From positions 186,001 to 250,000 of the forward strand of contig NZ_JSWG01000009.1 in the NCBI RefSeq assembly GCF_000797465.1: a stretch of 64,000 nt of DNA. Direction: 5' to 3'. The position numbers and the translations under genes are program-made. The notes below the pieces were generated by a model, which had not been told where the DNA came from, made no database searches, and saw nothing but the letters and a program-made list of their open reading frames with translations. Numbering within the stretch: position 1 is the stretch's first letter; each line of letters begins with the position of its first letter. Positions 3,043 to 19,131 of this stretch are shown here, piece by piece. This DNA is from Psychroserpens jangbogonensis (GTDB taxonomy: Bacteria > Bacteroidota > Bacteroidia > Flavobacteriales > Flavobacteriaceae).

Positions 3043-4089
3043 ATGCAAAAGGAATCTAAAATTTACGTTGCAGGACATAGAGGTTTAGTTGGTAGTGCAT
3101 TATTAGAGAACCTAAAAAACAAAGGATTTCATAATATTATTACTAGAACTCATAAAGAATTAGACCTTACTAATCAAAATGAAGTCGCCGTTTTTTTTGA
3201 GGTCGAAAAACCTGACTATGTGTTTTTGGCTGCAGCAAAAGTTGGAGGAATTGTAGCAAATAATGTTTACCGAGCGGACTTTATTTATGATAATATGATG
3301 ATTCAAAACAATGTGATTCATCAAAGCTACGTAAACGGTGTCAAGAAGTTATTATTTTTAGGAAGTACGTGTATTTATCCTAAAAATGCTCCGCAACCAA
3401 TGAAAGAAGATTACCTTCTGACAGATACTTTGGAATATACCAATGAACCTTATGCTATAGCAAAGATTGCGGGTATTAAAATGTGCGAAAGCTACAATTT
3501 ACAATATGGAACAAATTTCATATCTGTAATGCCTACAAATCTTTACGGACCAAATGATAATTTTAATCTAGAAAAATCTCACGTTCTTCCTGCGCTAATT
3601 AGAAAAATCCATTTGGCAAAATTATTAAATGAAAATTCATATTCTGATGTTTTGAAGGATACTGGGTTTTCAACTATAGAAGAAGCTAAAACCTATTTGT
3701 CTTCATTCGGAGTCTCTGAGACTCAAGTTGAAATTTGGGGAACAGGAAATCCGAGAAGAGAATTCTTATGGTCAAAAGACATGGCAGATGCCTGTGTTTT
3801 CATTATGGAAAATAGAGATTTTACGGATACATTTTCAAAAGACGAAAAAGAAGTACGGAACACTCATATCAACATTGGTACAGGTGAAGACATTTCTATT
3901 TCAGAATTAGCAGAAACTATTAAAGCAATTATAGGTTTTAAAGGAGAATTGGTTTACAATGTAGATAAGCCAGACGGTACGCTTAGAAAATTGACAGATG
4001 TATCTAAACTGAATGCTTTAGGATGGAAGCATAAAATAAAATTGGAAGACGGAATAAAGAATATGTATGAGTGGTATAGAAATAAATAA
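3043..4089 (+). CDS. fcl: GDP-L-fucose synthase
   Basis: Fcl/WcaG carries out the 3,5-epimerisation and 4-reduction that give GDP-L-fucose. The 348-residue protein has GHRGLVGS at 11-18, GSTCIYP at 107-113 with Cys110, Tyr137/Lys141 in YAIAK, and His180 in EKSHVLPAL. It is longer than the E. coli enzyme (about 321 residues) because of an insertion of about 30 residues near 190-225, which as I recall is common in Bacteroidota. Its 3' end overlaps the cysQ start by 23 nt, linking fucose synthesis to sulfate activation in one transcript. Confidence 0.95.
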   Translation: MQKESKIYVAGHRGLVGSALLENLKNKGFHNIITRTHKELDLTNQNEVAVFFEVEKPDYVFLAAAKVGGIVANNVYRADFIYDNMMIQNNVIHQSYVNGVKKLLFLGSTCIYPKNAPQPMKEDYLLTDTLEYTNEPYAIAKIAGIKMCESYNLQYGTNFISVMPTNLYGPNDNFNLEKSHVLPALIRKIHLAKLLNENSYSDVLKDTGFSTIEEAKTYLSSFGVSETQVEIWGTGNPRREFLWSKDMADACVFIMENRDFTDTFSKDEKEVRNTHINIGTGEDISISELAETIKAIIGFKGELVYNVDKPDGTLRKLTDVSKLNALGWKHKIKLEDGIKNMYEWYRNK

Positions 4090-4876
4090 GAATTTAAAAA
4101 TTGCGATAGAAGCCTCTTTAAAAGCAGGTGAAGTAATCATGCAAGTTTACGATACGGCTTTTGATGTAGAAATTAAAGATGATAAATCACCTTTAACTGA
4201 AGCAGACAAAAAAGCAAATGATATAATTAACACATTTTTAAAGCCTACACCAATTCCTATTATAAGTGAAGAAAACAAACAAACGGATTATTCTACTAGA
4301 AAACAGTGGGAAACCTGTTGGATTGTTGATCCTGTAGACGGTACAAAAGAGTTTATCAAAAGGAATGGAGAATTTACAGTTAATATTGCTTTAATTAACA
4401 ACGGTAAACCTGTGTTAGGTGTCATTTACGTTCCAGCAACCAAAACATTATATTTTGCTGACGTTTTAAAACAACAAGCGCATAAAGCACAATTAAACTC
4501 TCATAATACAACAATCGAAGAAGCGCTTGAACAGGCAACAGCTCTTCAAACAAAAGAGGTGACAAACAACGTAGAAGTAGTTGGAAGTCGATCTCACATG
4601 AGTCAGGAAACATTAGATTTTGTTGAAGCATTAAAGACGTCTGGTAAAGAAGTGAAAATAGTTTCAAAAGGAAGCTCTCTAAAATTTTGTTTAGTAGCAG
4701 AAGGTAATGCTGATATTTATCCGAGATTTGCACCAACCATGGAATGGGATACAGCAGCAGGCCAAGCTATTTGTAATGCAGTTGGAGTTGAGGTTATTTC
4801 TGAAGACACCAAACAACCCCTTTTATACAATAAAGAAAACCTACTAAACCCTTGGTTTGTGGTTTCAAAGCACTAA
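4067..4876 (+). CDS. cysQ: 3'(2'),5'-bisphosphate nucleotidase CysQ
   Basis: CysQ hydrolyses 3'-phosphoadenosine 5'-phosphate (PAP), the by-product left after PAPS-dependent sulfation. The 269-residue inositol-monophosphatase-fold protein shows EE at 68-69, DPVDGTKEF at 88-96 for metal binding and the second metal motif EWDTAAGQAI near residue 225. The ATG at 4067 lies inside the end of fcl. CysQ next to sulfotransferase genes fits removal of PAP, which inhibits sulfotransferases. It begins the block cysQ-DUF2061-cysC-cysD. Confidence 0.94.
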   Translation: MSGIEINKNLKIAIEASLKAGEVIMQVYDTAFDVEIKDDKSPLTEADKKANDIINTFLKPTPIPIISEENKQTDYSTRKQWETCWIVDPVDGTKEFIKRNGEFTVNIALINNGKPVLGVIYVPATKTLYFADVLKQQAHKAQLNSHNTTIEEALEQATALQTKEVTNNVEVVGSRSHMSQETLDFVEALKTSGKEVKIVSKGSSLKFCLVAEGNADIYPRFAPTMEWDTAAGQAICNAVGVEVISEDTKQPLLYNKENLLNPWFVVSKH

Positions 4877-4881
4877 AATTA

Positions 4882-5337
4882 ATGGCTACATACAAACAAG
4901 AGTCACATATTAGAAGCCTTTTAAAAGGTATTTCTTGGAGAGCTATTGCAACAACAGACACTATACTTGTAGTTTTATTGATTACATGTGTTACTGGAAA
5001 TTGTAGCCTAGAAAGCGCAATTAAAATTGGGACGATTGAGTTTTTGATTAAGTTTATTGCATACTACTTGCACGAAAGAATATGGCAAAGGCGATTAATT
5101 AATAAAGCTGTTACTCAAAAACAAACTCTTCAAAAAACGATATCATGGCGTGTTATTGCAACAACAATGACATTTTTAATCTCTGGTTCGGTATTAGAGT
5201 CCTTTGATGAAATCGCTTTATACATTGCACTTACAGAATTATTTACGAAATTCGTATTATATTACTTACACGAAAGACTTTGGCTAATTCTTCCTTTGGG
5301 AAAAATTAGACAGTTTTTTTTCGACAAAAAAAGATAA
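4882..5337 (+). CDS. Tandem DUF2061 small membrane protein
   Basis: The 151-residue protein has two internal copies of one unit: GISWRAIATTDT near residue 15 and TISWRVIATTMT near residue 85, each followed about 40 residues later by YYLHERIW or YYLHERLW. Each unit has hydrophobic helices. This is the DUF2061 arrangement, and its biochemical role is unknown. I start at 4882 (MATYKQE), after the cysQ stop, rather than at an in-frame ATG 30 nt upstream inside cysQ. It lies between cysQ and cysC, 1 nt before cysC, so a role in sulfate activation or sulfate/PAP handling is plausible but inferred. Confidence 0.85.
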   Translation: MATYKQESHIRSLLKGISWRAIATTDTILVVLLITCVTGNCSLESAIKIGTIEFLIKFIAYYLHERIWQRRLINKAVTQKQTLQKTISWRVIATTMTFLISGSVLESFDEIALYIALTELFTKFVLYYLHERLWLILPLGKIRQFFFDKKR

Positions 5338-5338
5338 T

Positions 5339-5935
5339 ATGTCAAAACATATCATTCCACATAGCTACCAAATATCTAAAAAAGATAGGTTGGACGCTAA
5401 TAAACACAATTCATTTTTAATATGGTTTACAGGTCTCTCCGGTTCTGGGAAATCAACCATTGCAAATGTTGTTGAACAAAAACTATTTGAACAAGGTATA
5501 AGAACATATACGCTTGATGGTGATAATATTAGAAAAGGGATTAACAACGACCTAACTTTTTCTCCTGAAGACAGAAAAGAAAATATTAGGCGTATTGCTG
5601 AAGTATCAAACTTAATGATAGACTCGGGTTCTGTGGTGTTGGCAGCATTTGTTTCTCCATATAAAAAAGATAGAGAGAATATTAGAACTATCGTTAAAGA
5701 TGTTAACTTTGTAGAAGTTTATATCAATACGAGTGTAGAAGAGTGTGAACGTAGAGACGTAAAAGGTCTTTATAAAAAGGCAAGAGCAGGAGAAATTAAG
5801 AATATGACTGGTATTTCTGCGCCTTACGAAGCACCCAAAACCCCTGATATTGAAATAAAAACAGAGATAGAATCTGTTGAAGATTCTGTAAAAAGAATAG
5901 TAGATTTTATAACACCAAAATTGTCAAGGAAATAA
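5339..5935 (+). CDS. cysC: Adenylylsulfate (APS) kinase
   Basis: CysC phosphorylates APS to PAPS, the universal sulfate donor. The 198-residue P-loop kinase has Walker A GLSGSGKST at 32-40, LDGDNIR near 59-65, the conserved FSPEDRKENIRR segment and FVSPYKKDRE. Length is typical for a stand-alone kinase. Its TAA shares one base with the cysD ATG (TAATG), so the genes are coupled. With no PAPS reductase nearby, its product probably feeds the sulfotransferases downstream. Confidence 0.96.
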   Translation: MSKHIIPHSYQISKKDRLDANKHNSFLIWFTGLSGSGKSTIANVVEQKLFEQGIRTYTLDGDNIRKGINNDLTFSPEDRKENIRRIAEVSNLMIDSGSVVLAAFVSPYKKDRENIRTIVKDVNFVEVYINTSVEECERRDVKGLYKKARAGEIKNMTGISAPYEAPKTPDIEIKTEIESVEDSVKRIVDFITPKLSRK

Positions 5936-6840
5936 TGAGTAAATATTATTTAAATTATTTAGACGAATTAGAAAGTGAAGCCATTTACATATTACGTGAA
6001 GTTTGGGCTCAATTTGAAAACCCTGTAATTTTATTTTCTGGAGGAAAAGATTCGATACTTGTAACTCATTTAGCAAAAAAAGCATTCTTTCCAGCTAAAA
6101 TTCCTTTTCCATTAATGCATGTTGATACAGGACATAATTTTCCTGAAACCATTCAATTTAGAGATGATATTATAAACGATTTAGGCGTCGCACTTATCGT
6201 AGGATCTGTTCAAGAATCTATAGACGAAGGGCGAGTTGCTGAAGAAAAAGGAAAAAACGCAACTAGAAATGCACTTCAAATCACAACTCTACTTGATGCA
6301 ATCGAATCTAATAAGATTGATTGTGCAATTGGTGGAGGTCGTAGAGATGAGGAAAAAGCCAGAGCTAAAGAACGTTTCTTTTCACATAGAGATGATTTCG
6401 GGCAATGGGATCCAAAGAACCAAAGACCAGAGCTTTGGAATATTTTTAATGGAAGACATTTTGAAGGAGAACATTTTAGAGCATTTCCAATAAGTAATTG
6501 GACAGAAATGGACGTTTGGAATTATATCAAACGAGAAAATATAGCCATTCCATCTTTGTATTATGCTCATGAACGAGAAGTGGTTTGGAGGCAAGATTCT
6601 TGGATACCAAATTCTGAATTTTTGGTACTTGAAGACCATGAAGAAATCGTTACTAAAAAAATACGTTTTAGAACCTTAGGTGATATCACAATTACTGGAG
6701 GAATTGAATCTGATGCAAATACTTTAGAGAAAATTGCAGAAGAAGTTTCTGGGATGCGTCAAACGGAAAGAGGTAATAGAAGTGATGATAAACGCTCAGA
6801 ATCCGCTATGGAGGACAGAAAGCGTCAAGGTTATTTTTAA
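5935..6840 (+). CDS. cysD: Sulfate adenylyltransferase subunit 2
   Basis: CysD is the catalytic PP-loop subunit that adenylates sulfate from ATP to give APS, working with the GTPase CysN. The 301-residue protein has the PP-loop SGGKDS at 35-40, MHVDTGHNFPET near 60-71 and a normal C-terminus ending DRKRQGYF. In most genomes cysN follows at once; here it begins about 8.1 kb downstream and an MBOAT gene starts 18 nt after the cysD stop. A decayed copy of the cysD 3' end reappears at 10470-10514. Confidence 0.96.
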   Translation: MSKYYLNYLDELESEAIYILREVWAQFENPVILFSGGKDSILVTHLAKKAFFPAKIPFPLMHVDTGHNFPETIQFRDDIINDLGVALIVGSVQESIDEGRVAEEKGKNATRNALQITTLLDAIESNKIDCAIGGGRRDEEKARAKERFFSHRDDFGQWDPKNQRPELWNIFNGRHFEGEHFRAFPISNWTEMDVWNYIKRENIAIPSLYYAHEREVVWRQDSWIPNSEFLVLEDHEEIVTKKIRFRTLGDITITGGIESDANTLEKIAEEVSGMRQTERGNRSDDKRSESAMEDRKRQGYF

Positions 6841-6858
6841 AAACTCACACCAACAGAA

Positions 6859-8310
6859 ATGTTTTTTAATTCCATAGACTTTGCAATATTTTTCCCTATA
6901 GTATTCATACTTTATTGGTTGGTCTCTCAAAAACTCTTTTTAAGAAACCTTCTAGTTTTAGTTGCGAGTTATGTCTTTTACGGATGGTGGGATTGGCGTT
7001 TTTTACTCTTAATAGTTATAAGTTCATTAGTAGATTTTATAGTCGGTCAAAAGCTGTACAAATCTGAAAACTTAAAGCAACGCAAAGGGCTATTATCAAT
7101 TAGTTTAATAGTTAATTTAGGATTTTTAGTCTACTTTAAATACACGAACTTTTTTATAGACACTTTTGTAGATTCTTTTAGGCTTTTTGGGAAGGAGTTA
7201 GAAATATCTACTTTAAACATAATACTTCCTGTTGGCATTAGTTTTTATACATTTCAAACATTAAGCTATACCATTGATATTTATAGAAAACAATTAAAAC
7301 CAACAAAAAATTGGTTAGCCTTTTTCTCTTTTGTTGCCTTTTTCCCTCAGTTAGTTGCAGGACCAATAGAAAGAGCTTCTCATTTATTACCTCAATTTTA
7401 TAAAACTTATAAGTTTAATTACAACCTTGTAAAATCAGGATTGTTATTAATGGCGTTTGGTTTATTCAAAAAAATGGTGATTGCAGATCGCGCTGCAATA
7501 TTAGTTAATCAAGTTTATAATAATCCAACAGACTATCATGGCTATGAAACAATATTAGCTACTGTATTGTTTGCCTTCCAGATTTATTGTGATTTTTCTG
7601 GATATTCTGATATAGCAATTGGAGCCGCTAGAACTATGGGTTTTGATTTGATGAAGAATTTTGATAGTCCGTATTTTTCAAAATCTATTACAGAGTTTTG
7701 GAGACGTTGGCACATCTCACTTTCAACATGGTTTAGGGATTATGTCTACATACCATTAGGAGGAAGTAGAAATGGTAAATATAGAACCTATGCTAATTTA
7801 TTTATCGTATTTGTAGTTAGTGGATTGTGGCATGGAGCAGCAATGACTTTTGTGGTTTGGGGAGCAATTCATGGATTTATAATAGTGTTAGAAAAGGTGC
7901 TAACAAAGTATAGGAAAAAGATATTTACATCAAAAAACCATTTTTTAAATTATTTTTTAGCGATTCCTTTAACGTTTATTATTGTTTGTTTTGCTTGGAT
8001 ATTTTTTAGAGCAAATTCATTTAATGACGCAATGATCGTCATAAATAATTCATTTATTTTCCCTCCTTTTTCATTAGATAATATTCTTTCTAAAGAATTT
8101 GATAGAAGAGAATATTGGGTGTTAATTGTCGCAATAGTTATTTTGTTATTAAAGGATTTCATTGATAGAAATGACAAATGGATAGAAAACTTAAATAAAC
8201 TAAATATTGTTTTTAGATGGTTAATTTACTTAGTTATTGTTTTATCTATTATCTTTTACGGGCAATATGGAGATGATACTCCTGCAGAATTTATATATTT
8301 TCAATTTTAA
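6859..8310 (+). CDS. MBOAT family O-acyltransferase (AlgI-like), copy 1
   Basis: This is a 483-residue polytopic inner-membrane protein of the membrane-bound O-acyltransferase family. It carries PVGISFYTFQ at 124-133, the conserved FWRRWHISLSTWFRDY (His285) and GLWHGAAMTF with the invariant His325. AlgI-type MBOATs move acyl groups, usually acetyl, across the membrane to a periplasmic SGNH partner. It starts 18 nt after cysD and is followed by an SGNH-like gene. Residues 1-340 closely match the second MBOAT in the window, while the last 140 residues are much more divergent. The natural substrate is unknown. Confidence 0.93.
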   Translation: MFFNSIDFAIFFPIVFILYWLVSQKLFLRNLLVLVASYVFYGWWDWRFLLLIVISSLVDFIVGQKLYKSENLKQRKGLLSISLIVNLGFLVYFKYTNFFIDTFVDSFRLFGKELEISTLNIILPVGISFYTFQTLSYTIDIYRKQLKPTKNWLAFFSFVAFFPQLVAGPIERASHLLPQFYKTYKFNYNLVKSGLLLMAFGLFKKMVIADRAAILVNQVYNNPTDYHGYETILATVLFAFQIYCDFSGYSDIAIGAARTMGFDLMKNFDSPYFSKSITEFWRRWHISLSTWFRDYVYIPLGGSRNGKYRTYANLFIVFVVSGLWHGAAMTFVVWGAIHGFIIVLEKVLTKYRKKIFTSKNHFLNYFLAIPLTFIIVCFAWIFFRANSFNDAMIVINNSFIFPPFSLDNILSKEFDRREYWVLIVAIVILLLKDFIDRNDKWIENLNKLNIVFRWLIYLVIVLSIIFYGQYGDDTPAEFIYFQF

Positions 8311-8320
8311 GTTTGTGATA

Positions 8321-10438
8321 ATGTTTAAGCTTTTATTTAAGTCCTTTTTGTTTATTACGTTAATTTTAATTGTATGTTTTGCTGCATTGTATTTAAATCC
8401 ACAGTACAATACTCATTATCTAAAGTCTATCAAGTTAAAGTTAAAGAAACTCAATAAAGTTGAAGGGAGAAAAATTGTTATCATAGGAGGAAGTAATGCT
8501 TGTTTTGGTATTGATAGCGATTTAATGGAAAACACACTTGGTATTCCGGTTGTAAATACAAGTTTACATGCATCTCTTGGCCCTAAATTTTGGATTGAAT
8601 ACGTTAAGAATGATTTGAAAGAAGGAGATATATTAATTATGTCATCAGAATTTGGGATGCTATCCAAAAAAGGCTGGTATGGAACAAAAAGTAATGCAGT
8701 TCCATTCACTATTTTATTCACACCTTCAAAATTACATATATTATTTACTGATTATTCTCTTTTTAAAAACACCATCGTTGGGATTTTTGAGACTATAAAA
8801 TCTTATTGGAAAGAATATCCATTTAAACCAACTACACGCCAAACAGCTTTCGATTTTAGGTCATTTGATAGTGATAATATAAAAGCAGATTTTCTAAATA
8901 AAACGTATACTAAAAAAGTACCAGTCAAAGAGTTAATATTTCACGAAAACTACACTTCTTGGGAAAAACTAAAAAGTGAAAAGAAATATTTTGATTCTAA
9001 AAACATTAAATTTTATATGACATTACCTTCAGCACTAGATGAAGCATTCAAAATCAAAAATACTACTGAATTTATTAAGGCTGTTAGTGAATATAGTGAA
9101 ATCCCAATCCTGAACAACAATTACGATTATTTTTTTAAAAGAAAATACTTTTTTGATTCTGAATATCACTTAAACTATACTGGAAGAAGATACAGAACAA
9201 AACAACTAATTAATGACATTAAGGAAGATATATTAAAAAACAAACCTATTTCAGAAAAACAAAAGATTATACTATCGGAGGCTAGTTTTGAAAGAATAGA
9301 ACTAGACCAAATGAAAATGAATTACAAAATAAAAATAAAACGTTTTGGTAAAGATTCAATAACCATTGGGCCTGAGGTTAATGATAAAGTTGGGTTTTTG
9401 AAGTATAAAACTGAATTAAAAGATTATTCTGGGTATCTCATTAAAATAAAAGTTAAATGTAAACCAGATGTATTAGAGAAATTAAAATTCAGAGGCGCTG
9501 CGGAATATGATTTTGATAATAAAAACTCTGTAGCAGATAACATTCATGTTTTATGTAAAAACCTTTCTAAAACAATCACAGCTTCAAATGACAATAGCTA
9601 TAGTTCCATAGGAATTACTTTTGATGCTGGAGATTTGAAAATGGATGATACTTTTACAATATTGGATGTTCATCTCATTAAAGGAGCACAATTTACTTGC
9701 GATAATGTATTAAAATATGACAGTAGGCCAGAATATATTATTAAGCCTTCGGTTAAAGAGATTATTTTTAAATATAAAAGTATTGTTATCCAAAACATTA
9801 AAGTAAAGGATGTAATGAATTTAAATTCAAAAATTGAATTAAAAGTTAATGACAAATATTTAATTAAATTTAAGTCAGATTCATTGTACTTATATGATTT
9901 TTATCTTGACAAGCTACTTTTAAAACAAAAAATTAATTCTCCTTTAAGATTTTTAAATAGTAAAAATTATGAATTAGAATTGAATATAGATGATTTAATA
10001 AAAGAAAAAGCCGTTATAGGGTCAAGTAAAAAAAGCAATTCTTTGAAGGAACAGTTTATTAATACAGAAAAAATATTGACCAATCCATTTAAATTCAATG
10101 AGGCAATAAAAATAAATGAAATAGGTTATTTCTGTGAACAAAAAGGGAACTATAATTTTATATTTCAATTAGATAACAATTCTCTTTATAAAGAACTTGA
10201 AAACTTTACTGGATACATAAAATATTATAATGATGATATAGATGAACAAAACAAACACGTTACTAGTTTTCCTTTAAAATATATTGAATTTGAGGGACAC
10301 AAGTATATATCTGTAGCTATCAAAATTGATAACATAAATCTGTCAAAACTTGATTTCTTCTTTATTAAGAAAAACCCTAAAGAAGTCTCTAAGATTTATA
10401 TAGCTAAAGATTTAAAACTAATAAAGAATGATAGATAG
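8321..10438 (+). CDS. SGNH/DHHW-like membrane-anchored protein, large form (copy 1)
   Basis: The 705-residue protein has one N-terminal membrane segment (about 8-25) and then a likely periplasmic SGNH-type domain: VIIGGSNACFG with Ser58, and a C-terminal His283 in EYHLNYTG. The Asp expected three residues before the His is Ser280, with Asp279 one position further away. Residues about 310-590 are a beta-rich insertion absent from the two sister proteins. The last 110 or so residues match the C-termini of both sisters. I start at 8321 (MFKLLFKS), 10 nt after the MBOAT stop; an upstream in-frame start lies inside the MBOAT gene. It is probably the partner of MBOAT copy 1. Confidence 0.8.
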   Translation: MFKLLFKSFLFITLILIVCFAALYLNPQYNTHYLKSIKLKLKKLNKVEGRKIVIIGGSNACFGIDSDLMENTLGIPVVNTSLHASLGPKFWIEYVKNDLKEGDILIMSSEFGMLSKKGWYGTKSNAVPFTILFTPSKLHILFTDYSLFKNTIVGIFETIKSYWKEYPFKPTTRQTAFDFRSFDSDNIKADFLNKTYTKKVPVKELIFHENYTSWEKLKSEKKYFDSKNIKFYMTLPSALDEAFKIKNTTEFIKAVSEYSEIPILNNNYDYFFKRKYFFDSEYHLNYTGRRYRTKQLINDIKEDILKNKPISEKQKIILSEASFERIELDQMKMNYKIKIKRFGKDSITIGPEVNDKVGFLKYKTELKDYSGYLIKIKVKCKPDVLEKLKFRGAAEYDFDNKNSVADNIHVLCKNLSKTITASNDNSYSSIGITFDAGDLKMDDTFTILDVHLIKGAQFTCDNVLKYDSRPEYIIKPSVKEIIFKYKSIVIQNIKVKDVMNLNSKIELKVNDKYLIKFKSDSLYLYDFYLDKLLLKQKINSPLRFLNSKNYELELNIDDLIKEKAVIGSSKKSNSLKEQFINTEKILTNPFKFNEAIKINEIGYFCEQKGNYNFIFQLDNNSLYKELENFTGYIKYYNDDIDEQNKHVTSFPLKYIEFEGHKYISVAIKIDNINLSKLDFFFIKKNPKEVSKIYIAKDLKLIKNDR

Positions 10439-10457
10439 TAACCATTTGTAAGGCTTA

Positions 10458-10514
10458 ATGTTCAAGTGTGTCAAATCAGCCACTAAAGACAGGAAGCCTT
10501 TAGGTTATTTTTAA
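10458..10514 (+). pseudogene. cysD: Relic of cysD 3' end in front of the second MBOAT gene
   Basis: Read in the frame of 10458, the gap between the first SGNH gene and the second MBOAT gene gives KSATKDRKPLGYF followed by TAA. The genuine CysD ends ESAMEDRKRQGYF followed by TAA; 8 of these 13 residues and the stop match, and the conserved bases continue past the stop into the MBOAT leader. The homologous part is about 10470-10514. It indicates that this MBOAT gene once directly followed cysD and that the first MBOAT-SGNH pair entered between them later, or that the pair was duplicated together with the cysD tail. Confidence 0.75.
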
Positions 10515-10532
10515 AAACCCACCTCAAAAAGT

Positions 10533-11975
10533 ATGTTTTTTAATTCGTTAGAATTTGCAATATTTTTCCCTATAGTATTCATACTTTATTGGTTAGTTTC
10601 TCAAAAGCTTTTTTTAAGAAACCTTCTTATTTTAATTGCCAGTTATGTCTTTTATGGATGGTGGGATTGGCGTTTTTTATTCCTGATAGTCATAAGTTCT
10701 ATTGTAGATTTTATAGTGGGCCAAAAACTACATAAGACAGAGAATCTTCAGAAGCGAAAAGGCTTATTAATAATTAGTTTAATTGTGAACCTTGGCTTTT
10801 TAATTTATTTTAAATACACGAACTTTTTTATTGAGTCGTTTGTAGATTCATTTAGATTATTTGGTAAACAACTAGAGGTGTCTACGTTAAACATTATACT
10901 TCCTGTAGGGATTAGTTTTTACACATTTCAAACCTTAAGTTATACAATAGATATTTATAGAAAGCAATTAAAACCAACGAAAGATTGGTTAGCTTTTTTC
11001 TCATTTGTAGCATTTTTTCCACAATTAGTTGCTGGACCAATAGAGAGGGCATCTCATTTATTACCTCAATTTTATAAGACTTATAAATTTAATTACAACT
11101 TAGTAAAATCAGGTTTGTTATTAATGGCATTTGGGTTATTTAAAAAGATGGTGATTGCGGATCGTGCTGCAATTTTGGTAAATCAGGTGTATAATAATCC
11201 AACAGATTATTATGGTTACGAAACGATATTAGCAACGGTACTGTTTGCATTCCAGATTTATTGTGATTTTTCAGGATATTCAGACATTGCAATTGGAATT
11301 GCCAGAACCATGGGATTTGATTTGATGAAGAATTTTGACAGTCCGTATTTCTCAAAATCTATTACAGAGTTCTGGAGACGATGGCATATCTCCCTTTCAA
11401 CATGGTTTAGAGATTATGTTTATATTCCATTAGGTGGAAGCCGAAACGGGACATACAGAACTTACGCTAATTTGTTTATCGTGTTTTTAGTAAGTGGTCT
11501 TTGGCATGGGGCAGCAATGACTTTTGTGGTTTGGGGAGCGATTCATGGTGTATTTATTGTTATTGAAAAGGCACTAACAAAATTGAGGATGGCCATATTT
11601 AAAAAGAGCAAAGCTTTAAACTACCTTATAGCCTTGCCATTTACTTTTTTCATTGTGTGTTTTGCTTGGGTATTTTTTAGAGCCAATTCATTTAAAGATG
11701 CCGTTATAATTATTAGTAATTCATTTCAAATATCAGAAACTGGCAATCTATTTAGTCTTGGACTAAAGAAGTCGGAGTTTAATCTATTATTTGTTATGAT
11801 AGTGTTGTTATTAGTTTTTGAAATTATTCATAAACGCTTTGAGGTAACTCATGTTTTAAATAAAACCTATTTACCAATACGATGGAGTTTTTATTTAGTT
11901 ATAGTGTTTTGCATTTTAATTTTTGGCATTTACGGAGAAAACACAGTGAAAGAATTTATATATTTTCAATTTTAA
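10533..11975 (+). CDS. MBOAT family O-acyltransferase (AlgI-like), copy 2
   Basis: The 480-residue paralogue of the first MBOAT has the same landmarks: PVGISFYTFQ, FWRRWHISLSTWFRDY and GLWHGAAMTF with its invariant His. The first 340 residues are nearly identical at protein level to copy 1, but many third codon positions differ, so the duplication is not recent or the copies come from different lineages. The C-terminal 140 residues diverge and converge again only at the final EFIYFQF. It is 3 nt upstream of the second SGNH gene, its likely periplasmic partner, and is preceded by a cysD-tail relic. Confidence 0.93.
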   Translation: MFFNSLEFAIFFPIVFILYWLVSQKLFLRNLLILIASYVFYGWWDWRFLFLIVISSIVDFIVGQKLHKTENLQKRKGLLIISLIVNLGFLIYFKYTNFFIESFVDSFRLFGKQLEVSTLNIILPVGISFYTFQTLSYTIDIYRKQLKPTKDWLAFFSFVAFFPQLVAGPIERASHLLPQFYKTYKFNYNLVKSGLLLMAFGLFKKMVIADRAAILVNQVYNNPTDYYGYETILATVLFAFQIYCDFSGYSDIAIGIARTMGFDLMKNFDSPYFSKSITEFWRRWHISLSTWFRDYVYIPLGGSRNGTYRTYANLFIVFLVSGLWHGAAMTFVVWGAIHGVFIVIEKALTKLRMAIFKKSKALNYLIALPFTFFIVCFAWVFFRANSFKDAVIIISNSFQISETGNLFSLGLKKSEFNLLFVMIVLLLVFEIIHKRFEVTHVLNKTYLPIRWSFYLVIVFCILIFGIYGENTVKEFIYFQF

Positions 11976-11978
11976 GGG

Positions 11979-13382
11979 ATGAAGAGGTTTGTTTTAAAGG
12001 TGATTTTATTTTTTATACTTATTCTGCTTTCACTAAGTGTTATAGATAGACATTTCATTAATCCAGATAGATTTAACGGTGTAGTTAAAGAATTTAATAA
12101 ATCAATTGAAACAAATGTTGAAGAATCCATCCTATTTGTAGGTAGTTCTAGAAGTTTTTGCACGTTTAACCCAGCGGTATTTGATTTCTATTTAGGAGGA
12201 CAAAGTTTCAATTTATCTTCTAGTAGCCAATTATTAAATACCTCGAAGTTTTTAATTGAAGAAAATATTGACAAAACAGATTACAAATTAATAGTTTTAA
12301 ATTTCTCAAGAGGCTTAGTTGTATTACCTCAAACAAAAGACACCTTAAAATTTGTGAAAAGTGTGTTTTTTCAAAATATAGTTTATGATAATTACAGGCT
12401 TTCTATAAATAAAATAAAATCAAATTTAGATGGGAAACTTTTATCGTCTTTAAGCCCAACATATAGAAATCATTCAAAATGGGATTCTGTTCTGTTTGGG
12501 GACAAAAAGAAACTGCCATTTATATATAATAAAAGAGATGTTACATTCAGTAATAACGGCTTTACAACCAGTAATATTTTACCCAACAATAATATTTTGG
12601 AAAAGGGACAAATTTTGAAAAAACCATATAATGAAGTATTGGTAAATTCAAAATTTAATGGAAAAGTGAATGCTGAAGAAATTGAATTTATCACCTCTAT
12701 CAAAAAAATAATTAATGAGAGTAATAGTAAATTACTTGTTACTACCTCACCATCAATTAGAGATTATAATCATAATTTAGAATATTATGAAAAATTTGAA
12801 ACTAAAATGGATTCTTTAGGGATTAACTACCTTAACCTTAACAAACATGTTGCTGAAATAAAATTAAAACCATTTGATTTCTATGATCAAAATCATTTGA
12901 CATACAACGGAAGTATAAAGGTGTCAGAATACCTTTCTAAGTATATTAAAGAAAAGTATAAATTTAACTTCAGTAAAAGTAAAGATTGTGAAAATATAAC
13001 TTGCCATCTATATAATAACCTAGATTCAGCTAAATCTATATTAGATACTTCTTTTGATTTTAATGATGAACTTAGAATTAGTAAAATAAAATACTTTAAT
13101 GAATTAAAAGATCAATATGTATTTGTTTTAGAAGGACAAGAAGGAGTTGAACATTACAATGATTATGTTGGATATGTAAGATATTACAATACAAGTTTAG
13201 ATGATAAAAATAAAACCGTTGAAAGTTTTCAATTAAGGAGCGTCAACGTTTTGAATAAGAAATATTTCATAAATAGAATTATTATACCAAATCCTGACAT
13301 ATTAAAGTTTGATATTTTTTTTATTAGGAAAAAAGACAAAAAAGTATCCAAATTATTTTCAATAAAAAATTTAAACTTATGA
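11979..13382 (+). CDS. SGNH/DHHW-like membrane-anchored protein, copy 2
   Basis: The 467-residue protein has an N-terminal membrane anchor (about 5-22), then LFVGSSRSFC with candidate nucleophile Ser57, and DQNHLTYNG with Asp303 and His306 forming the DxxH motif of SGNH hydrolases. SIRDYNHNLEYYE near 260 is shared with copy 3. About 110 C-terminal residues (GYVRYYN, FDIFFIRKK) form a domain shared by all three copies. It follows its MBOAT by 3 nt, an AlgI/AlgJ-like pairing, so it probably transfers or removes acyl groups on a glycan in the periplasm (inference). Confidence 0.82.
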   Translation: MKRFVLKVILFFILILLSLSVIDRHFINPDRFNGVVKEFNKSIETNVEESILFVGSSRSFCTFNPAVFDFYLGGQSFNLSSSSQLLNTSKFLIEENIDKTDYKLIVLNFSRGLVVLPQTKDTLKFVKSVFFQNIVYDNYRLSINKIKSNLDGKLLSSLSPTYRNHSKWDSVLFGDKKKLPFIYNKRDVTFSNNGFTTSNILPNNNILEKGQILKKPYNEVLVNSKFNGKVNAEEIEFITSIKKIINESNSKLLVTTSPSIRDYNHNLEYYEKFETKMDSLGINYLNLNKHVAEIKLKPFDFYDQNHLTYNGSIKVSEYLSKYIKEKYKFNFSKSKDCENITCHLYNNLDSAKSILDTSFDFNDELRISKIKYFNELKDQYVFVLEGQEGVEHYNDYVGYVRYYNTSLDDKNKTVESFQLRSVNVLNKKYFINRIIIPNPDILKFDIFFIRKKDKKVSKLFSIKNLNL

Positions 13383-13510
13383 TGTTTTTAAACGTGTAAG
13401 AAAATTTAGAATTATATTGAAGTGTTAGCGATTTACTTTATTGATTGTAAGTTGCATGTATATTAGTCCTAGTGATATATGGAGAAAACGTTACCAAGTT
13501 GTTGATCTAA
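13382..13510 (+). pseudogene. Relic of a third, deleted MBOAT gene
   Basis: The gap before the third SGNH gene carries MBOAT remains. In the frame of 13451-13510 it reads VACILVLVIYGENVTK, which aligns with VFCILIFGIYGENTVK at the C-terminus of MBOAT copy 2 with 10 of 16 identical, ending at TAA 13508-13510 just before the SGNH ATG. Just upstream, 13429-13449 reads RFTLLIV, matching the preceding MBOAT segment after a one-base frameshift near 13450. At 13382 an ATG overlapping the previous stop gives MFLN, similar to the MBOAT start MFFN, but this 5' part is weak. Nearly all of the central gene is gone. Confidence 0.65.
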
Positions 13511-13517
13511 TTAAATA

Positions 13518-14951
13518 ATGAAAAAGCTAATCATAAAATCAATATTACTCTCTTTGGTTACGCTTCTCTTTATCAAGTTAGGTGAGAAATACTTTATTAA
13601 AGAAAATAGATTTAATTATGCGAACTATAAATTTAATGAACTGAATAAGGTTTTAGAATTTGATTTAATTTTTTTCGGAAGCTCTAAAAGTTATTGTGCA
13701 TATAACCCAGCAATTTTTCAAAACAATCTTAATGTTAACACTTTTAATTTAGCTGGACAAGATCAAACACTTGATGTTACAAGTTTTGTTATTGAAGAAG
13801 CCTTAAAGAAAAGCAAACCTAAATTAATCATTGTTGATGTTGCAGAATCGATGTTTTTTATAAAAGAATCTGATAGCATTTTTACCAACAGAAAATCGCT
13901 TCAGTTTCCGACATATGACAATTATGGCCTTTCATTTAATAAAATAACACACCTCAAAAGCATATACAAAGGTGAGCGTTTTTTTTATGCAACCAGTCCA
14001 ATAATTAGGAACCATGGGAAATGGATGGATGTTTTTAATTGCAATTATAAGAAGAGCTACCTAGAAGATAAGAATAATATTTTCCTGTCCAACAATGGAT
14101 ATATAGGTACGCTACAGTATTTAAGCAATAGTGACCTTAAAGAAGCTGAAGACCTTGATCAAGCTACTAATAAATTATTAAAAACAGAAAACCCTAAGGT
14201 TGGTGAAAAAGAAATCGAGATACTAAAGAATATCAAAAACATAGCCGACAAACACGACGTTGATATTTTATTTATTTCAACACCAACAATTAGAGATTAC
14301 AATACGAATCTCTCCTTTTATGAAGATTTAGAACAAGTGTTTCAGGATATTAACACAAACTATCTTAACCTTTATAAGGAGTTTGACAATATTTTAGAGC
14401 CTAAAGATTTTAAAGACATTGTTCATTTAAATTATACTGGTGGATCTAAAACATCACAACACCTAGCTGAGTATTTAAAAAGCAACTATGACTTAACATC
14501 TACAATGGCTAGTTCAAATAGTAGTTTAAATAATAATATCACCTACCATTTACTGTCCAATTTGGAACATGTAAATAAAATAATTGACAGCTCATTTGAA
14601 TTTAATAAAGAAATTAAATTAAACGAATTAGGATATTTTGAAGAAGGTGATAATAGATTTGTTTTTTTAATGAAATTAGAAGGCAATCTTTTCAAAGAAA
14701 ATGAGTTGGATAAGTATACTGGATTTGTAAGATATTATAAAGGAGAGATAACTGAAGATAATAAAAACGTGAATGGCTTTCCCTTAAAGGTTATAGATAT
14801 TAACAAAGATAAGTTTATATTTGCTCGAGTCTTAATTGATACATCAGTGATTTCAAAATTTGATGTGTTTTTTTTAGATAAAGAGACTAAAAAAGCCTCA
14901 AAATTCTTGACTATAAAAGATTTAAAATTTATAAAAAATGCAAATTTATAA
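13518..14951 (+). CDS. SGNH/DHHW-like membrane-anchored protein, copy 3
   Basis: The 477-residue protein is a close sister of copy 2: membrane anchor at about 5-20, IFFGSSKSYC with Ser56, TIRDYNTNLSFYE near 260, DIVHLNYTG with Asp300 and His303, and the shared C-terminal domain (YTGFVRYYK, KFDVFFLDKE). It has no intact MBOAT of its own; only a relic precedes it. It could use one of the two remaining MBOATs. Its 3' end overlaps the cysN start by 14 nt, so cysN translation is coupled to this gene rather than to cysD. Confidence 0.82.
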   Translation: MKKLIIKSILLSLVTLLFIKLGEKYFIKENRFNYANYKFNELNKVLEFDLIFFGSSKSYCAYNPAIFQNNLNVNTFNLAGQDQTLDVTSFVIEEALKKSKPKLIIVDVAESMFFIKESDSIFTNRKSLQFPTYDNYGLSFNKITHLKSIYKGERFFYATSPIIRNHGKWMDVFNCNYKKSYLEDKNNIFLSNNGYIGTLQYLSNSDLKEAEDLDQATNKLLKTENPKVGEKEIEILKNIKNIADKHDVDILFISTPTIRDYNTNLSFYEDLEQVFQDINTNYLNLYKEFDNILEPKDFKDIVHLNYTGGSKTSQHLAEYLKSNYDLTSTMASSNSSLNNNITYHLLSNLEHVNKIIDSSFEFNKEIKLNELGYFEEGDNRFVFLMKLEGNLFKENELDKYTGFVRYYKGEITEDNKNVNGFPLKVIDINKDKFIFARVLIDTSVISKFDVFFLDKETKKASKFLTIKDLKFIKNANL

Positions 14952-16194
14952 CAATCAACTATTACGCTTCACTACAGCAGGAAGTGTAGATGATGGAAAA
15001 AGCACATTAATAGGCCGTTTACTTTATGATTCAAAATCAATTTTTGAAGATCAATTGCAAGCAATTGAAAACACAAGTAAAAAGAAAGGACACGATGGAG
15101 TCGATTTAGCGCTTTTTACTGATGGTTTAAAAGATGAAAGAGAACAAGGGATAACAATAGATGTTGCTTATAGGTATTTCACAACACCAAAGCGTAAATT
15201 TATAATTGCTGATACACCAGGTCATATTCAATATACACGAAATATGGTTACTGGAGCATCAACAGCTAATGCGGCAATTATTTTGGTTGATGCACGTCAC
15301 GGTGTAATTGAACAAACAAGACGACATTCATTTATTGCTTCTTTACTGCAGATTCCTCACGTTATTGTTTGTGTGAACAAAATGGATTTGGTGGATTTTT
15401 CAGAAGAAGCTTATAATAAAGTAATTAATGAATTTGAGGAGTTCTCTTCTAAGATGCTTGTTAGAGATGTGCGTTTTATTCCAATTAGCGCTTTATTAGG
15501 TGACAATGTAGTAAATCGATCTAAAAACATGGATTGGTATCAAGGCGCTCCTTTATTACACACCTTAGAGACCATGCATATTAGTAGTGATATTAATAAA
15601 GTAGACACTCGTTTTCCTGTGCAAACCGTTTTAAGACCACAAAATGAAACTCATAGAGATTATCGAGGATATGCAGGAAGAGTTGCTAGTGGTATTCTTA
15701 GAGTTGGAGATGACGTTACAGTCATGCCATCTGGATTTACATCTACTATAAAAAGTATAGACACCTTAGATAAACCATTAGAGGAAGCTTATGCTCCAAT
15801 GTCTGTTTCGGTAACTCTCGAAGATGATATTGATATTAGCAGAGGCGATATGATAGTAAGGTCTAACAACAAACCAGAGGCGTCACAAGATATTGAAGTT
15901 ATGCTATGCTGGCTTCACAAGGATAATGCAAAGCCTAGAGCTAAATATAGTATTAGGCATACTTCAAACGAGCAAAAGGCAATGATTAAAGAGGTGGTCT
16001 ATAAATTCGACATTAACACCTTAGAGAGAAACAGTCATGACAAAGAATTAGGCATGAATGATATATCTAAAGTTAAAATAAGAACAACCAAACCTTTGAT
16101 GATTGATTCTTACAGAGAAAACAGAACTACTGGAAGTATTATTCTTGTAGATGATGCTACAAATGAAACTGTTGCGGCTGGTATGATCGTTTAA
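14938..16194 (+). CDS. cysN: Sulfate adenylyltransferase subunit 1 (GTPase)
   Basis: CysN is the GTPase that drives APS formation by CysD. The 418-residue protein has the translation-factor GTPase motifs: G1 GSVDDGKST at 15-23, G3 DTPGH at 92-96 and G4 NKMD at 147-150, followed by beta-barrel domains. It is shorter than E. coli CysN (about 475 residues), and the ending looks natural. There is no fused CysC domain, consistent with the separate cysC upstream. It is split from cysD by about 8 kb of acyltransferase genes but remains on the same strand with overlapping or tightly spaced genes. Confidence 0.96.
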   Translation: MQIYNNQLLRFTTAGSVDDGKSTLIGRLLYDSKSIFEDQLQAIENTSKKKGHDGVDLALFTDGLKDEREQGITIDVAYRYFTTPKRKFIIADTPGHIQYTRNMVTGASTANAAIILVDARHGVIEQTRRHSFIASLLQIPHVIVCVNKMDLVDFSEEAYNKVINEFEEFSSKMLVRDVRFIPISALLGDNVVNRSKNMDWYQGAPLLHTLETMHISSDINKVDTRFPVQTVLRPQNETHRDYRGYAGRVASGILRVGDDVTVMPSGFTSTIKSIDTLDKPLEEAYAPMSVSVTLEDDIDISRGDMIVRSNNKPEASQDIEVMLCWLHKDNAKPRAKYSIRHTSNEQKAMIKEVVYKFDINTLERNSHDKELGMNDISKVKIRTTKPLMIDSYRENRTTGSIILVDDATNETVAAGMIV

Positions 16195-16830: not shown

Positions 16831-18156
16831 ATGAAAATATTTCACACGAATGATAAAAATTTAAAAGAGCTAATTAAAGGTAGCTCTTCTGCATTTTTTG
16901 TAAAGATAGCAGGAATGCTGTTCACTTATCTCTCGATGCTGTTTATTACCAGATTCTTTGGTGCTGAGGCATGGGGAATATATACGCTAGGATTTACTGT
17001 TCTAAGTATTGCTGTAGTTATTCCAGTTTTTGGATTTGACAATTCGATAATTCGTTTGCTTACCGAACTTAAGCAAAACAACAATAAAGCAAGCATATAT
17101 AAGGTTCTTTTAAAGGCCTCATCTATTACAATCATACTTTCTGTAGTTGTTATTTTAGGAATAAATTATTATTCCGGTTTTATCACAAATAGTGTACTAA
17201 GGCAAAAAGGATTCGAACCTTATCTGCTTTTAGTTCGAATTGCAGTTTTGCCAATGGCATTTCTGATTTTAATAAGTGTTGTTTTTCAATCGTATAAGCG
17301 TATTATTCAGTTTATGCTCTTCAAATCAGCATTATTGAGCTTTATGTTTTTGATATTATTGTGTGTTTTCTATTTTTTAAAAATTGATGCTAAGATTTTT
17401 GAAATATATATATATGCAATTCTTTGTACGCTTGTTATTGCTTCAATAGCATTGTTTTTCTTTTCGAAATCTATCAAAGACGGCAATAGCGAACTTTCAA
17501 GTAAGACTTATAGTTTTAAAGAAATAATCTACCTTTCATTTCCTATGATGTTGTCAAGTTCATTTGCACTATTAATGGGATGGACAGATATTTTAATGCT
17601 ATCATATTATAAAGCTCCCAAAGATATTGGGATCTATAGCTCAGCACTTAAGCTGGCGTCTATTACGCTTATTGCATTAGCTTCAGTAAACTCAATATCC
17701 AGTCCGAAATTTGCTGAGTTTTTCTCTAAAAAAGATTTTAAAGGACTTAAAGAAGTCGTTCAAAAGTCAACTAAAATAATGTTTATAACTTCGGCGCCAA
17801 TTTTATTAATTTTCATACTATTACCAAAAACTATTTTAGGCATTTTTGGGCCTGAATTTGTTTCTGGTTATATTGTGTTAATATTGCTATGCGCAGGACG
17901 TTTTATAAATTCAATTTCTGGCTCTGTTGGTCATTTAATGCAAATGACAGACAATCAAAAAACATATCAATACGTTATTATTGTTGCCTTTATTATCAAT
18001 CTGATATTAAACTTCTTACTTATACCTAAATACGGTATAAATGGAGCAGCTTTATCAAGTTCAATTGCTATGGTGTTTTGGAATGTTACCTTAGTGATTA
18101 TTATAAAAAAGCGACTTGGTTTTTGGACCTTTTATATTCCGTTTTTAGTAAAGTAG
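16831..18156 (+). CDS. Wzx-like oligosaccharide flippase
   Basis: The 441-residue integral membrane protein has about 12-14 hydrophobic segments in the pattern of the polysaccharide transporter (PST/MOP) family, with the N-terminal GSSSAFFVKIAGMLFTYLSM region and internal SFPMMLSSSFALLMGWTDI typical of that family. Such proteins flip undecaprenyl-linked repeat units to the periplasm. It lies between the cysN block and the sulfotransferase, with Wzy-like genes downstream, which supports a Wzx/Wzy-type pathway. A second flippase-like gene lies far away at 50441. Confidence 0.88.
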   Translation: MKIFHTNDKNLKELIKGSSSAFFVKIAGMLFTYLSMLFITRFFGAEAWGIYTLGFTVLSIAVVIPVFGFDNSIIRLLTELKQNNNKASIYKVLLKASSITIILSVVVILGINYYSGFITNSVLRQKGFEPYLLLVRIAVLPMAFLILISVVFQSYKRIIQFMLFKSALLSFMFLILLCVFYFLKIDAKIFEIYIYAILCTLVIASIALFFFSKSIKDGNSELSSKTYSFKEIIYLSFPMMLSSSFALLMGWTDILMLSYYKAPKDIGIYSSALKLASITLIALASVNSISSPKFAEFFSKKDFKGLKEVVQKSTKIMFITSAPILLIFILLPKTILGIFGPEFVSGYIVLILLCAGRFINSISGSVGHLMQMTDNQKTYQYVIIVAFIINLILNFLLIPKYGINGAALSSSIAMVFWNVTLVIIIKKRLGFWTFYIPFLVK

Positions 18157-18162
18157 AATAAA

Positions 18163-19131
18163 ATGCAAGCACCTATATTTATATTTTCACTTCCACGATC
18201 TGGCTCAACACTTTTACAAAGAGTATTGATGTCTCATGAAGATGTTTGTAGTGTTGCAGAACCTTGGGTGCTTTTGCCACAAATGTATTTACTAAAAGAA
18301 AAAGGAACCCTTTCAGAATATTCAAGTTTAACAACCTATTGGGCGGTAAAGGATTTTATAAATAATCTACCTAATAAAGAAATAGATTACAACGAATCGC
18401 TTAAAACATTTATATTAGATTTATATTCAAAACAGTGTCAAAATAATGAACGCTATTTTTTAGATAAAACACCTCGTTATTATTTGATTATTGATGAGAT
18501 AGTCAACTTATTCCCTGAAGCAAAATTTATTTTTTTATTTAGAAACCCAATACAGGCCTATGCATCAGTTGTGAAAACTTGGGGAAATAATAGATTTAAT
18601 AAAATTAGATCATCGTATGATGATATTGTACTTGGTACTCAATTGTTGAGTGAAGGATATAATAAGCACAAAGATAAAAGTATCGCTGTTAATTACGAAA
18701 AGCTTGTTGTCAATTTTGAAACCGAATTAAAACACATAACAGACTATCTAGATCTTGATTTAAATCATTCAATTTTAAATGATTTTCATACTCAAGATAC
18801 TAAAGGTTCCTTAGGAGATCCCACAGGTGTTAAAAAATATTCATCGATATCTAATAAGAGTTTAACTACTTGGGAAAAAGTGTTTAATTCTAGTATTAGA
18901 AAGAAATATGCCTTGTGGTTGTTAAATGAAATAAACGATAAACACTTAAGGACTCAAGGATATAGTAAAGAAAATATAACAAAAGAAATTAAACGGTTAG
19001 ATTCAAAAAACAATCATTTAATAATAAAGGACTGTTTTGATTATTTCAACAACTTTCTAACTAGAAAATTTAAATTGACTTTAGTATTCAGTAAGAAATT
19101 TAGTTGGATTAAAAAGAAATACCTTTCATAA
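18163..19131 (+). CDS. PAPS-dependent sulfotransferase
   Basis: The 322-residue protein begins with IFIFSLPRSGSTLLQRVL, the PAPS 5'-phosphosulfate binding loop of the sulfotransferase superfamily (residues about 5-20). RNPIQAYASVVKTW near 128-141 is the 3'-phosphate binding segment and begins with the usual Arg. It probably transfers sulfate from PAPS to a sugar hydroxyl of the glycan made here; the exact acceptor is unknown. It is 6 nt after the flippase. Its presence explains the sulfate-activation genes in the same locus. Confidence 0.9.
   Translation: MQAPIFIFSLPRSGSTLLQRVLMSHEDVCSVAEPWVLLPQMYLLKEKGTLSEYSSLTTYWAVKDFINNLPNKEIDYNESLKTFILDLYSKQCQNNERYFLDKTPRYYLIIDEIVNLFPEAKFIFLFRNPIQAYASVVKTWGNNRFNKIRSSYDDIVLGTQLLSEGYNKHKDKSIAVNYEKLVVNFETELKHITDYLDLDLNHSILNDFHTQDTKGSLGDPTGVKKYSSISNKSLTTWEKVFNSSIRKKYALWLLNEINDKHLRTQGYSKENITKEIKRLDSKNNHLIIKDCFDYFNNFLTRKFKLTLVFSKKFSWIKKKYLS

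Follow-up and report, generated by a model that had tools for sequence, protein, structure and literature searches.

The described systems closest to the genes treated here pair a membrane protein of the MBOAT family with one or two proteins of the SGNH family, as in PatA-PatB (peptidoglycan O-acetylation in Gram-negative bacteria), DltB-DltD (teichoic acid D-alanylation) and AlgI-AlgJ-AlgX-AlgF (alginate O-acetylation). An acyl-shuttle motif of MBOATs, FXYXXF, is defined in PMC12148441. AlgX is described as an SGNH domain (residues 42-347) followed by a C-terminal carbohydrate-binding module (348-463; PMC9734138), and in AlgJ and AlgX the Asp and His are reported to precede the Ser (D190, H192 and S288; D174, H176 and S269, respectively; PMC4148444). 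Sulfate and O-acetyl on the same sugar, Rhap3S4Ac, are reported for the capsule of Vibrio sp. KMM 8419 (PMC11641403). Here, we analyzed a stretch of 64,000 nucleotides from Psychroserpens jangbogonensis (assembly GCF_000797465.1, contig NZ_JSWG01000009.1, positions 186,001 to 250,000; hereafter the window, to which all bare positions refer) in which MBOAT and SGNH genes lie between cysD and cysN, the genes for the two subunits of ATP sulfurylase. The genome (3.6 Mb, 62 contigs, 99.97% complete) belongs to a bacterium that is probably marine.

As a preliminary description of this DNA had claimed, cysD (ending at 6840) and cysN (starting at 14938) are split by about 8 kb, in fact 8.1 kb, holding two MBOAT and three SGNH-like genes on one strand. 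These are MBOAT1 (6859..8310), SGNH1 (8321..10438), MBOAT2 (10533..11975), SGNH2 (11979..13382) and SGNH3 (13518..14951), all on the + strand. The gaps from cysD to cysN are, in order, 18, 10, 94, 3, 135 and -14 bp. Each MBOAT is directly followed by an SGNH gene, likewise as described (gaps of 10 and 3 bp), while the wording "very short gaps or overlaps" fits the distances of 18, 10, 3 and -14 bp and not those of 94 and 135 bp. The G+C content of the SGNH genes is 0.249-0.275, versus 0.347 and 0.349 for cysD and cysN. By analogy with the known systems, we consider it fairly probable that the insert comprises two MBOAT-SGNH polymer O-acyltransferase modules (MBOAT1 with SGNH1; MBOAT2 with SGNH2 and SGNH3) of a Wzx/Wzy-dependent sulfated polysaccharide locus, and that it is a mobile cassette.

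Both MBOATs match PF03062 (102.4 and 98.1 bits, cut-off 27), and their sole NCBIfam match is DltB, TIGR04091, at 159.1 and 152.3 bits, far under the cut-off of 375. Both proteins have FIYFQF at their extreme C-terminus, in agreement with the FXYXXF shuttle motif. MBOAT1 shares 65-81% identity with six other MBOATs including MBOAT2, which is 81% identical to it but has a diverged C-terminal quarter. Two histidines, H285 and H325, are invariant across all seven aligned MBOATs; the histidine of SGLWHGA is the one that we take to be catalytic in this family. Genome G000 carries three further MBOATs elsewhere.

Scans of the window yielded no Pfam or NCBIfam match for SGNH1, SGNH2 or SGNH3. All three have a GxS close to the N-terminus and a late H-L motif. 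The putative catalytic motifs, as read from the sequences, are GSS with DxxH in SGNH2 and SGNH3 and GGS with D-x-x-x-H in SGNH1. In SGNH3 (477 aa), Ser 56 of the GxS is followed by D300xxH303, and SGNH2 (467 aa; GSS and DQNH) has the same Ser-first order. These two consist of an SGNH domain and a C-terminal domain and are 35% identical over 476 columns, i.e. over their full length. SGNH1 (705 aa, when the ATG at 8321 is taken as start and not the TTG at 8237 of the open reading frame (ORF) list) has a GGSN-type SGNH domain (~1-305), a middle region and a C-terminal domain (~580-705) common to SGNH2 and SGNH3; by BLAST only its last 120-150 residues resemble these two (37-44% identity). Its head is of a different type, the nearest being the partners, 308-346 aa long, that accompany some other MBOATs (main stretches 24-33% identical). 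A head of another type on a common tail means that heads and tail have been combined differently, and suggests that exchange of the SGNH heads is independent of that of the C-terminal domains.

An AlphaFold2 model of SGNH3 (mean predicted local distance difference test score 78.7) has a predicted helix at residues 2-23 that may serve as membrane anchor, an SGNH domain and a beta-rich domain at 341-470. Its best Foldseek match is DltD, and PatB and GDSL esterases were also matched. In the SGNH1 model, which is of lower quality, residues ~28-307 match SGNH enzymes, and matches to CBM21 (E 0.01-0.05) were obtained with this low-confidence model only. The C-terminal domain had no Pfam match and no convincing fold match in Foldseek searches with the whole SGNH1 and SGNH3 models.

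In the genus (23 genomes), this domain was matched nowhere but in its three window copies. A search of 299 family genomes gave one further match (E 4e-4), a 167-aa lipoprotein of G132 whose gene sits behind one read by eye as a WecC-type dehydrogenase gene; a profile of the three window copies alone also found it (E 1.8e-4 among 6690 ORFs). An iterated profile matched related lipoproteins in Bizionia algoritergicola (L179; cysC-cysD junction) and in G122 (L167; two cys-block junctions, DUF2061-cysC and cysC-cysD), as well as SGNH partners of Maribacter and Kriegella. These matches need the profile that includes the G132 lipoprotein and are missed by the three window copies alone, which makes them less independent. 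The related lipoproteins at junctions of cys or polysaccharide blocks lie at L167:2402-2875, L167:3474-3974, L179:6189-6701 and L283:1465-1968. The window's own lipoprotein-like gene (16214-16759) was absent among the C-terminal-domain matches listed. More generally, an ORF of 273-526 aa lay within 500 bp 3' of the MBOAT in 83 of 88 fetched MBOAT loci (SGNH identity was not proved one by one), measuring 468-526 aa in the 11 loci of the window-type MBOAT group versus 273-366 aa in the other 72 (L125 being entered with an overlong start).

Pfam and NCBIfam scans of the window ORFs place the insert in a co-directional polysaccharide cluster on the + strand (388-29793). It opens with rmlC, rmlD, gmd and fcl, followed by cysQ for 3'(2'),5'-bisphosphate nucleotidase, which recycles 3'-phosphoadenosine 5'-phosphate after sulfation (4067..4876; TIGR01331, 270.7 bits, cut-off 228.8), a gene for a DUF2061 membrane protein of the 3'-phosphoadenosine 5'-phosphosulfate (PAPS) block (4882..5337; PF09834; an internal ATG was chosen as start), which has the same position in relatives, cysC for adenosine 5'-phosphosulfate kinase (5339..5935; TIGR00455, 255.7 bits, cut-off 138.7) and cysD for the small subunit of ATP sulfurylase (5935..6840; TIGR02039, 410 bits, cut-off 396.6). 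The five inserted genes follow, and then cysN for the large subunit, overlapping SGNH3 by 14 bp (14938..16194; TIGR02034, 561.2 bits, cut-off 336.1). Downstream are the lipoprotein-like gene, which has no family match, a Wzx-like flippase gene (16831..18156; PF01943, 59.8 bits), a sulfotransferase gene (18163..19131; PF13469, 114.9 bits), a membrane protein gene without Pfam match that looks polymerase-like by eye, and two glycosyltransferase genes. The cluster continues with a second sulfotransferase-like gene of the NKWYS type (22329..23189; PF10364, 107.3 bits, plus a weak Sulfotransfer_2 match, PF03567, of 18.3 bits, below the cut-off of 22), a WecG-like gene, a Wzy_C polymerase/ligase gene (24021..25214; PF04932, 49.3 bits), a WD40-like gene, two nucleotide-sugar enzyme genes and the gene for an initiating sugar-phosphate transferase (28435..29793; PF02397, 224.3 bits). 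Since PAPS genes and sulfotransferase genes lie together inside this polysaccharide cluster, the combination by which PMC11641403 recognizes sulfated polysaccharide biosynthesis, the polymer is expected to be sulfated. The WD40-like gene, a beta-propeller by weak matches (25201-26127), stands between Wzy_C and a nucleotide-sugar dehydrogenase gene.

We propose that a cytoplasmic donor, probably acyl-CoA, would provide the acyl group that each MBOAT loads onto the Tyr in its C-terminal FIYFQF, and that this peptide would pass the group to a periplasmic, membrane-anchored SGNH protein, which would accept it on its Ser. This protein, which its beta-rich C-terminal domain may keep bound to the chain, would then transfer the group to the polysaccharide, and the same polysaccharide would be sulfated with PAPS from CysDNC. 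The acyl genes probably lie within the cys block because one polysaccharide is both sulfated and acylated. The cassette itself would travel among polysaccharide clusters and would have shifted its place with respect to the sulfate-activation block on more than one occasion, and at the window it would have been duplicated, or a second copy imported along with a piece of cysD. We infer the donor, the acyl group, the substrate and the joint transcription of the insert; the functional reading for the polymer is likely. One transcript is plausible, and weakly supported, because no terminator-like site was found on the + strand within 6841-14951, in a scan that performed at chance level (seven sites versus 4.5, standard deviation 2.3, in shuffled sequences).

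The position of the cassette in the cys block is recurrent, not fixed. TIGR02039 was matched in 156 of 199 family genomes, and 140 cysD loci were fetched from among the matches listed (some places were left out, G194 among them, and four genomes gave two loci). In 139 of these 140 loci cysN is on the same strand as cysD, with a gap of at most 183 bp in 126 and of more than 300 bp in 13. Two of the 13 long gaps (G191 and G113) contain one MBOAT and one SGNH gene, seven contain one small gene (five similar to the 23S_rRNA_IVP type, of which two were scanned; one PDDEXK_3; one DUF559), three are without an ORF of at least 40 aa, and one (L097) is an alignment artefact. The small unrelated genes at the cysD-cysN junction are those of L099, L113, L129, L131, L139, L151 and L153. 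In G205, cysD was matched as two partial stretches that overlap (C1:2982706-2983583), and it may be broken or misassembled.

Within the genus, cysD was matched in all 23 genomes and an MBOAT of at least 69% identity in four, the remaining 19 giving at most 55% or none at the threshold. Beside the window's genome, the four comprise those with the gene orders cysD-MBOAT-SGNH-cysN (G212), cysN-MBOAT-SGNH (G045) and MBOAT-SGNH-fcl-cysQ-DUF2061-cysC-cysD-cysN (G216). In 397 sampled family genomes, the window-type MBOAT was found in 18 (E up to 1e-165). The preliminary description had called for a comparison of cysD-cysN regions in relatives: the cassette lies between the two genes in six of the 18 (G000, G113, G366, G365, G191 and G194) and directly 3' of cysN in three (G045, G405 and G266), and is elsewhere in the other nine, a placement that the description had itself listed as part of what would speak against it. 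Sulfotransferase genes were present in all four cys-linked loci tested. The nine unlinked cassettes adjoin wecC-, rmlD- or fcl-type genes, as read by eye (the G129 neighbour is ambiguous). For other MBOATs, cysD or cysN was adjacent in none of 74 fetched loci (flanks up to 9 kb, some shortened by contig ends), and present within the locus in two, at ~1 kb and on the opposite strand in one and at ~8 kb in the other. Together with the 126 short cysD-cysN gaps, this contrast points to a position that is more than chance. Fisher's test for 9/18 versus 0/74 gives p 6e-8, a value to be read with the different sampling of the two sets and the non-independence of related genomes in mind.

Several observations weigh against our reading. 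The genus includes 19 genomes out of 23 that have cysD and lack a window-type MBOAT. The nine cassettes away from cysDN (G098, G101, G118, G129, G155, G188, G226, G333 and G388) imply that acylation can do without sulfation and that only neighbourhood links it to the substrate. The Asp of D-x-x-H is absent in 5 of 11 SGNH partners of the window-type MBOAT group, and SGNH partners from other clusters are just 18-23% identical to SGNH3. The structure matches listed for SGNH3 span model residues 22-334, outside the C-terminal domain, and it is from domain architecture, by analogy, that we infer a polymer-binding role for this domain. Finally, cysD has a single match in its own genome (cysN copies and Sat-type ATP sulfurylases were outside this search), which elsewhere contains a gene with a PF01507 domain that is presumably of the cysH type; the same ATP sulfurylase thus probably also serves assimilation. 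Hence, cysD may not serve sulfation alone, and co-expression would probably be with sulfate activation at large. The earlier proposal that acylation is expressed with sulfate activation retains the terminator scan in its favour and is qualified to this extent. The companion proposal, one polymer both sulfated and acylated, draws support from the intact MBOAT-SGNH genes, the PAPS/sulfotransferase cluster, the recurrence of this cassette next to these genes in several relatives and the precedent of the Vibrio sp. KMM 8419 capsule, and is tempered by a substrate that is deduced and by nesting that is not conserved.

Relocation is indicated by a tree of 30 MBOATs, in which two well-supported sister pairs each join a cys-linked with an unlinked copy, G212 with G188 (100/98) and G405 with G098 (100/99); the cassette therefore changed place, apparently more than once. 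Given that 11 of the 26 inner branches are open and that the 3 and 4 location changes are not clearly below shuffled means of 4.2 and 3.6 (17 rows not counted), our claim is limited to movement and extends neither to its direction nor to how often it occurred. An initial tree of 89 MBOATs had put 8 of 10 cys-labelled proteins in one clade (Shimodaira-Hasegawa-like approximate likelihood ratio support 98), with the cys-labelled L187 and L243 outside it. The sulfation-specific clade considered on this basis, implying an old and stable link to sulfation, was dropped when 14 more loci (30 rows) made linked and unlinked copies sisters.

Within the window, MBOAT1 and MBOAT2 are mutual closest rows of the 30-MBOAT tree (100/99). 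The DNA match of the two module copies, 83% over 1248 columns, begins inside cysD (6814 versus 10488), and local alignment against shuffles identified a decayed copy of the 3' end of cysD in the gap between SGNH1 and MBOAT2 (10488..10514, +). This remnant scores 45 over 35 columns, 30 of them identical, with 8 columns past the stop (maximum 30 in 1000 shuffles); its cysD part alone scores 34, a value reached by none of 500 shuffles. It follows that the second module once stood directly behind a cysD, and its sequence indicates that it was copied from, or arrived with, a cysD junction. A cysN remnant was not found in the same gap (score 20; 32 of 500 shuffles as high), and no MBOAT or cysD remnant was significant in the 135-bp SGNH2-SGNH3 gap (the region's best score was 28; 1000 shuffles reached up to 29 against the cysD end). 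Contig L195 of Lacinutrix himadriensis has MBOAT-SGNH-MBOAT within 3.5 kb. Compared with the G045 reference, its gap (L195:2510-2803) gave scores of 38 for a cysN-start and 34 for a cysD-end remnant, each with 0 of 500 shuffles as high; three other references gave 14-27, with 12-454 of 500 shuffles as high (eight comparisons in all). The presence of both remnants in this tandem gap is therefore put forward as suggestive. At L088:6893-7021, behind cysN and a lipoprotein gene, an N-terminal MBOAT fragment (43 aa, 81% identical) is apparently the relic of a lost cassette. In G266 (L272), the MBOAT behind cysN is broken by an in-frame TAA.

A broader possibility, which we raise tentatively, is that the sulfate-activation block in polysaccharide clusters of Flavobacteriaceae may be a docking site for exchangeable decoration cassettes. 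Here cysD, cysN and their neighbours would act as conserved anchors for homologous recombination, and MBOAT-SGNH modules and small lipoproteins related to the C-terminal domain would be swapped, stacked in tandem and lost at the junctions. Several acyl marks could then be placed on a single sulfated chain by stacked modules with different SGNH heads and a common tail, in a combinatorial code that resembles serotypes and is coupled to sulfate supply.

Alternatively, the cassette might acylate another envelope polymer (peptidoglycan, lipopolysaccharide core or a glycoprotein glycan), its cys position being a by-product of recombination in a conserved operon without a functional link to sulfation. 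The small unrelated genes in 7 of 139 cysD-cysN gaps (four of the seven scanned) show that this junction accepts unrelated inserts, half of the cassettes lie elsewhere, and the cysD remnant can be taken as a sign of recombination at the cysD end. We nevertheless regard this explanation as unlikely: the genes seen next to the window-type MBOAT were assigned by eye to sugar-nucleotide, polysaccharide or cys functions, sulfotransferase genes accompany the cys-linked loci tested, and the three other MBOATs of G000 could serve other polymers.

We also give little credence to the idea that one module works while the other is a decaying or role-less duplicate, with SGNH3 as the orphan of a lost third module. 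The remnant in the SGNH1-MBOAT2 gap, the decayed or interrupted copies of relatives (the L088 fragment and the G266 stop) and the count of three SGNH genes to two MBOATs would fit it. All five frames are open, however, the shuttle motif and the invariant histidines are kept in both MBOATs and the Ser/His motifs in all three SGNHs, the gap before SGNH3 lacks a significant MBOAT or cysD remnant, and the alginate design also has two SGNH proteins per MBOAT.

Also in the polysaccharide region, the gene at 30950-32284 (-) is presumably PaaK/CapK-like and adenylate-forming, and might provide an uncommon acyl group or have no connection with the modules. That lipid-linked repeat units or a sulfated glycolipid are the target of the modules, and not the polymer, possibly with a non-acetyl group being loaded, is to us quite improbable. 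The weak AMP-binding match of this gene (PF00501, 17.6 bits, below the cut-off) would fit it, as would the capacity of MBOAT-SGNH systems for groups beyond acetate (D-Ala in Dlt); against it, the gene lies on the opposite strand, and the MBOAT-SGNH systems that PMC12148441 describes have envelope polymers as substrates.

MBOAT-SGNH genes between cysD and cysN had no mention in the literature titles and abstract openings searched, with subscription journals and preprints outside the scope. To our knowledge, few sulfated bacterial polysaccharides have known biosynthetic genes, and the locus offers a complete candidate gene set for a polymer both sulfated and acylated. Surface chemistry may diversify when modules insert at the ATP sulfurylase genes and stack there in tandem, and the two-module relay proposed here is testable.

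Of the described systems, PatA-PatB resembles the window modules in having an MBOAT with a C-terminal FXYXXF and, as a protein of its own, an SGNH partner for which one anchor at the N-terminus is predicted (PMC12148441), and the SGNH3 model matches the PatB structure. As far as that system is described there, the window differs in its sulfated-polysaccharide cluster, in the extra beta-rich domain at the C-terminus of the SGNH protein and in an exported polysaccharide as expected substrate. DltB-DltD is similar in that DltB is the only NCBIfam model of the MBOATs and DltD the best match of SGNH3. However, the MBOAT scores are far under the DltB cut-off, the shuttle motif is on the MBOAT itself whereas that of Dlt is on the DltX microprotein, and neither dltA nor dltC was found among the neighbouring window genes scanned against Pfam and NCBIfam. 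In the Vibrio sp. KMM 8419 capsule cluster, cysNDC, sulfotransferases and an acyltransferase are likewise together (PMC11641403), but this is an ABC-transporter capsule, and in the part of the report available the acyltransferase is not stated to be an MBOAT or to split cysD and cysN. The alginate system, with one MBOAT and two SGNH proteins (PMC4148444, PMC9734138), has the composition of the second window module, and the SGNH plus C-terminal domain layout of AlgX is nearly that predicted for SGNH2 and SGNH3. The likeness to AlgI-AlgJ drawn in the preliminary description thus stands as a functional comparison, whereas the Ser-first order of the window SGNHs, opposite to that described for AlgJ and AlgX, excludes membership of these families. 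Moreover, AlgX is described without a membrane tether whereas SGNH3 has a predicted one, and the alginate system is of the synthase type whereas the window cluster is of the Wzx/Wzy type. Overall, the machinery is of a known type, and its repeated insertion and duplication at cysD-cysN is what is unusual.

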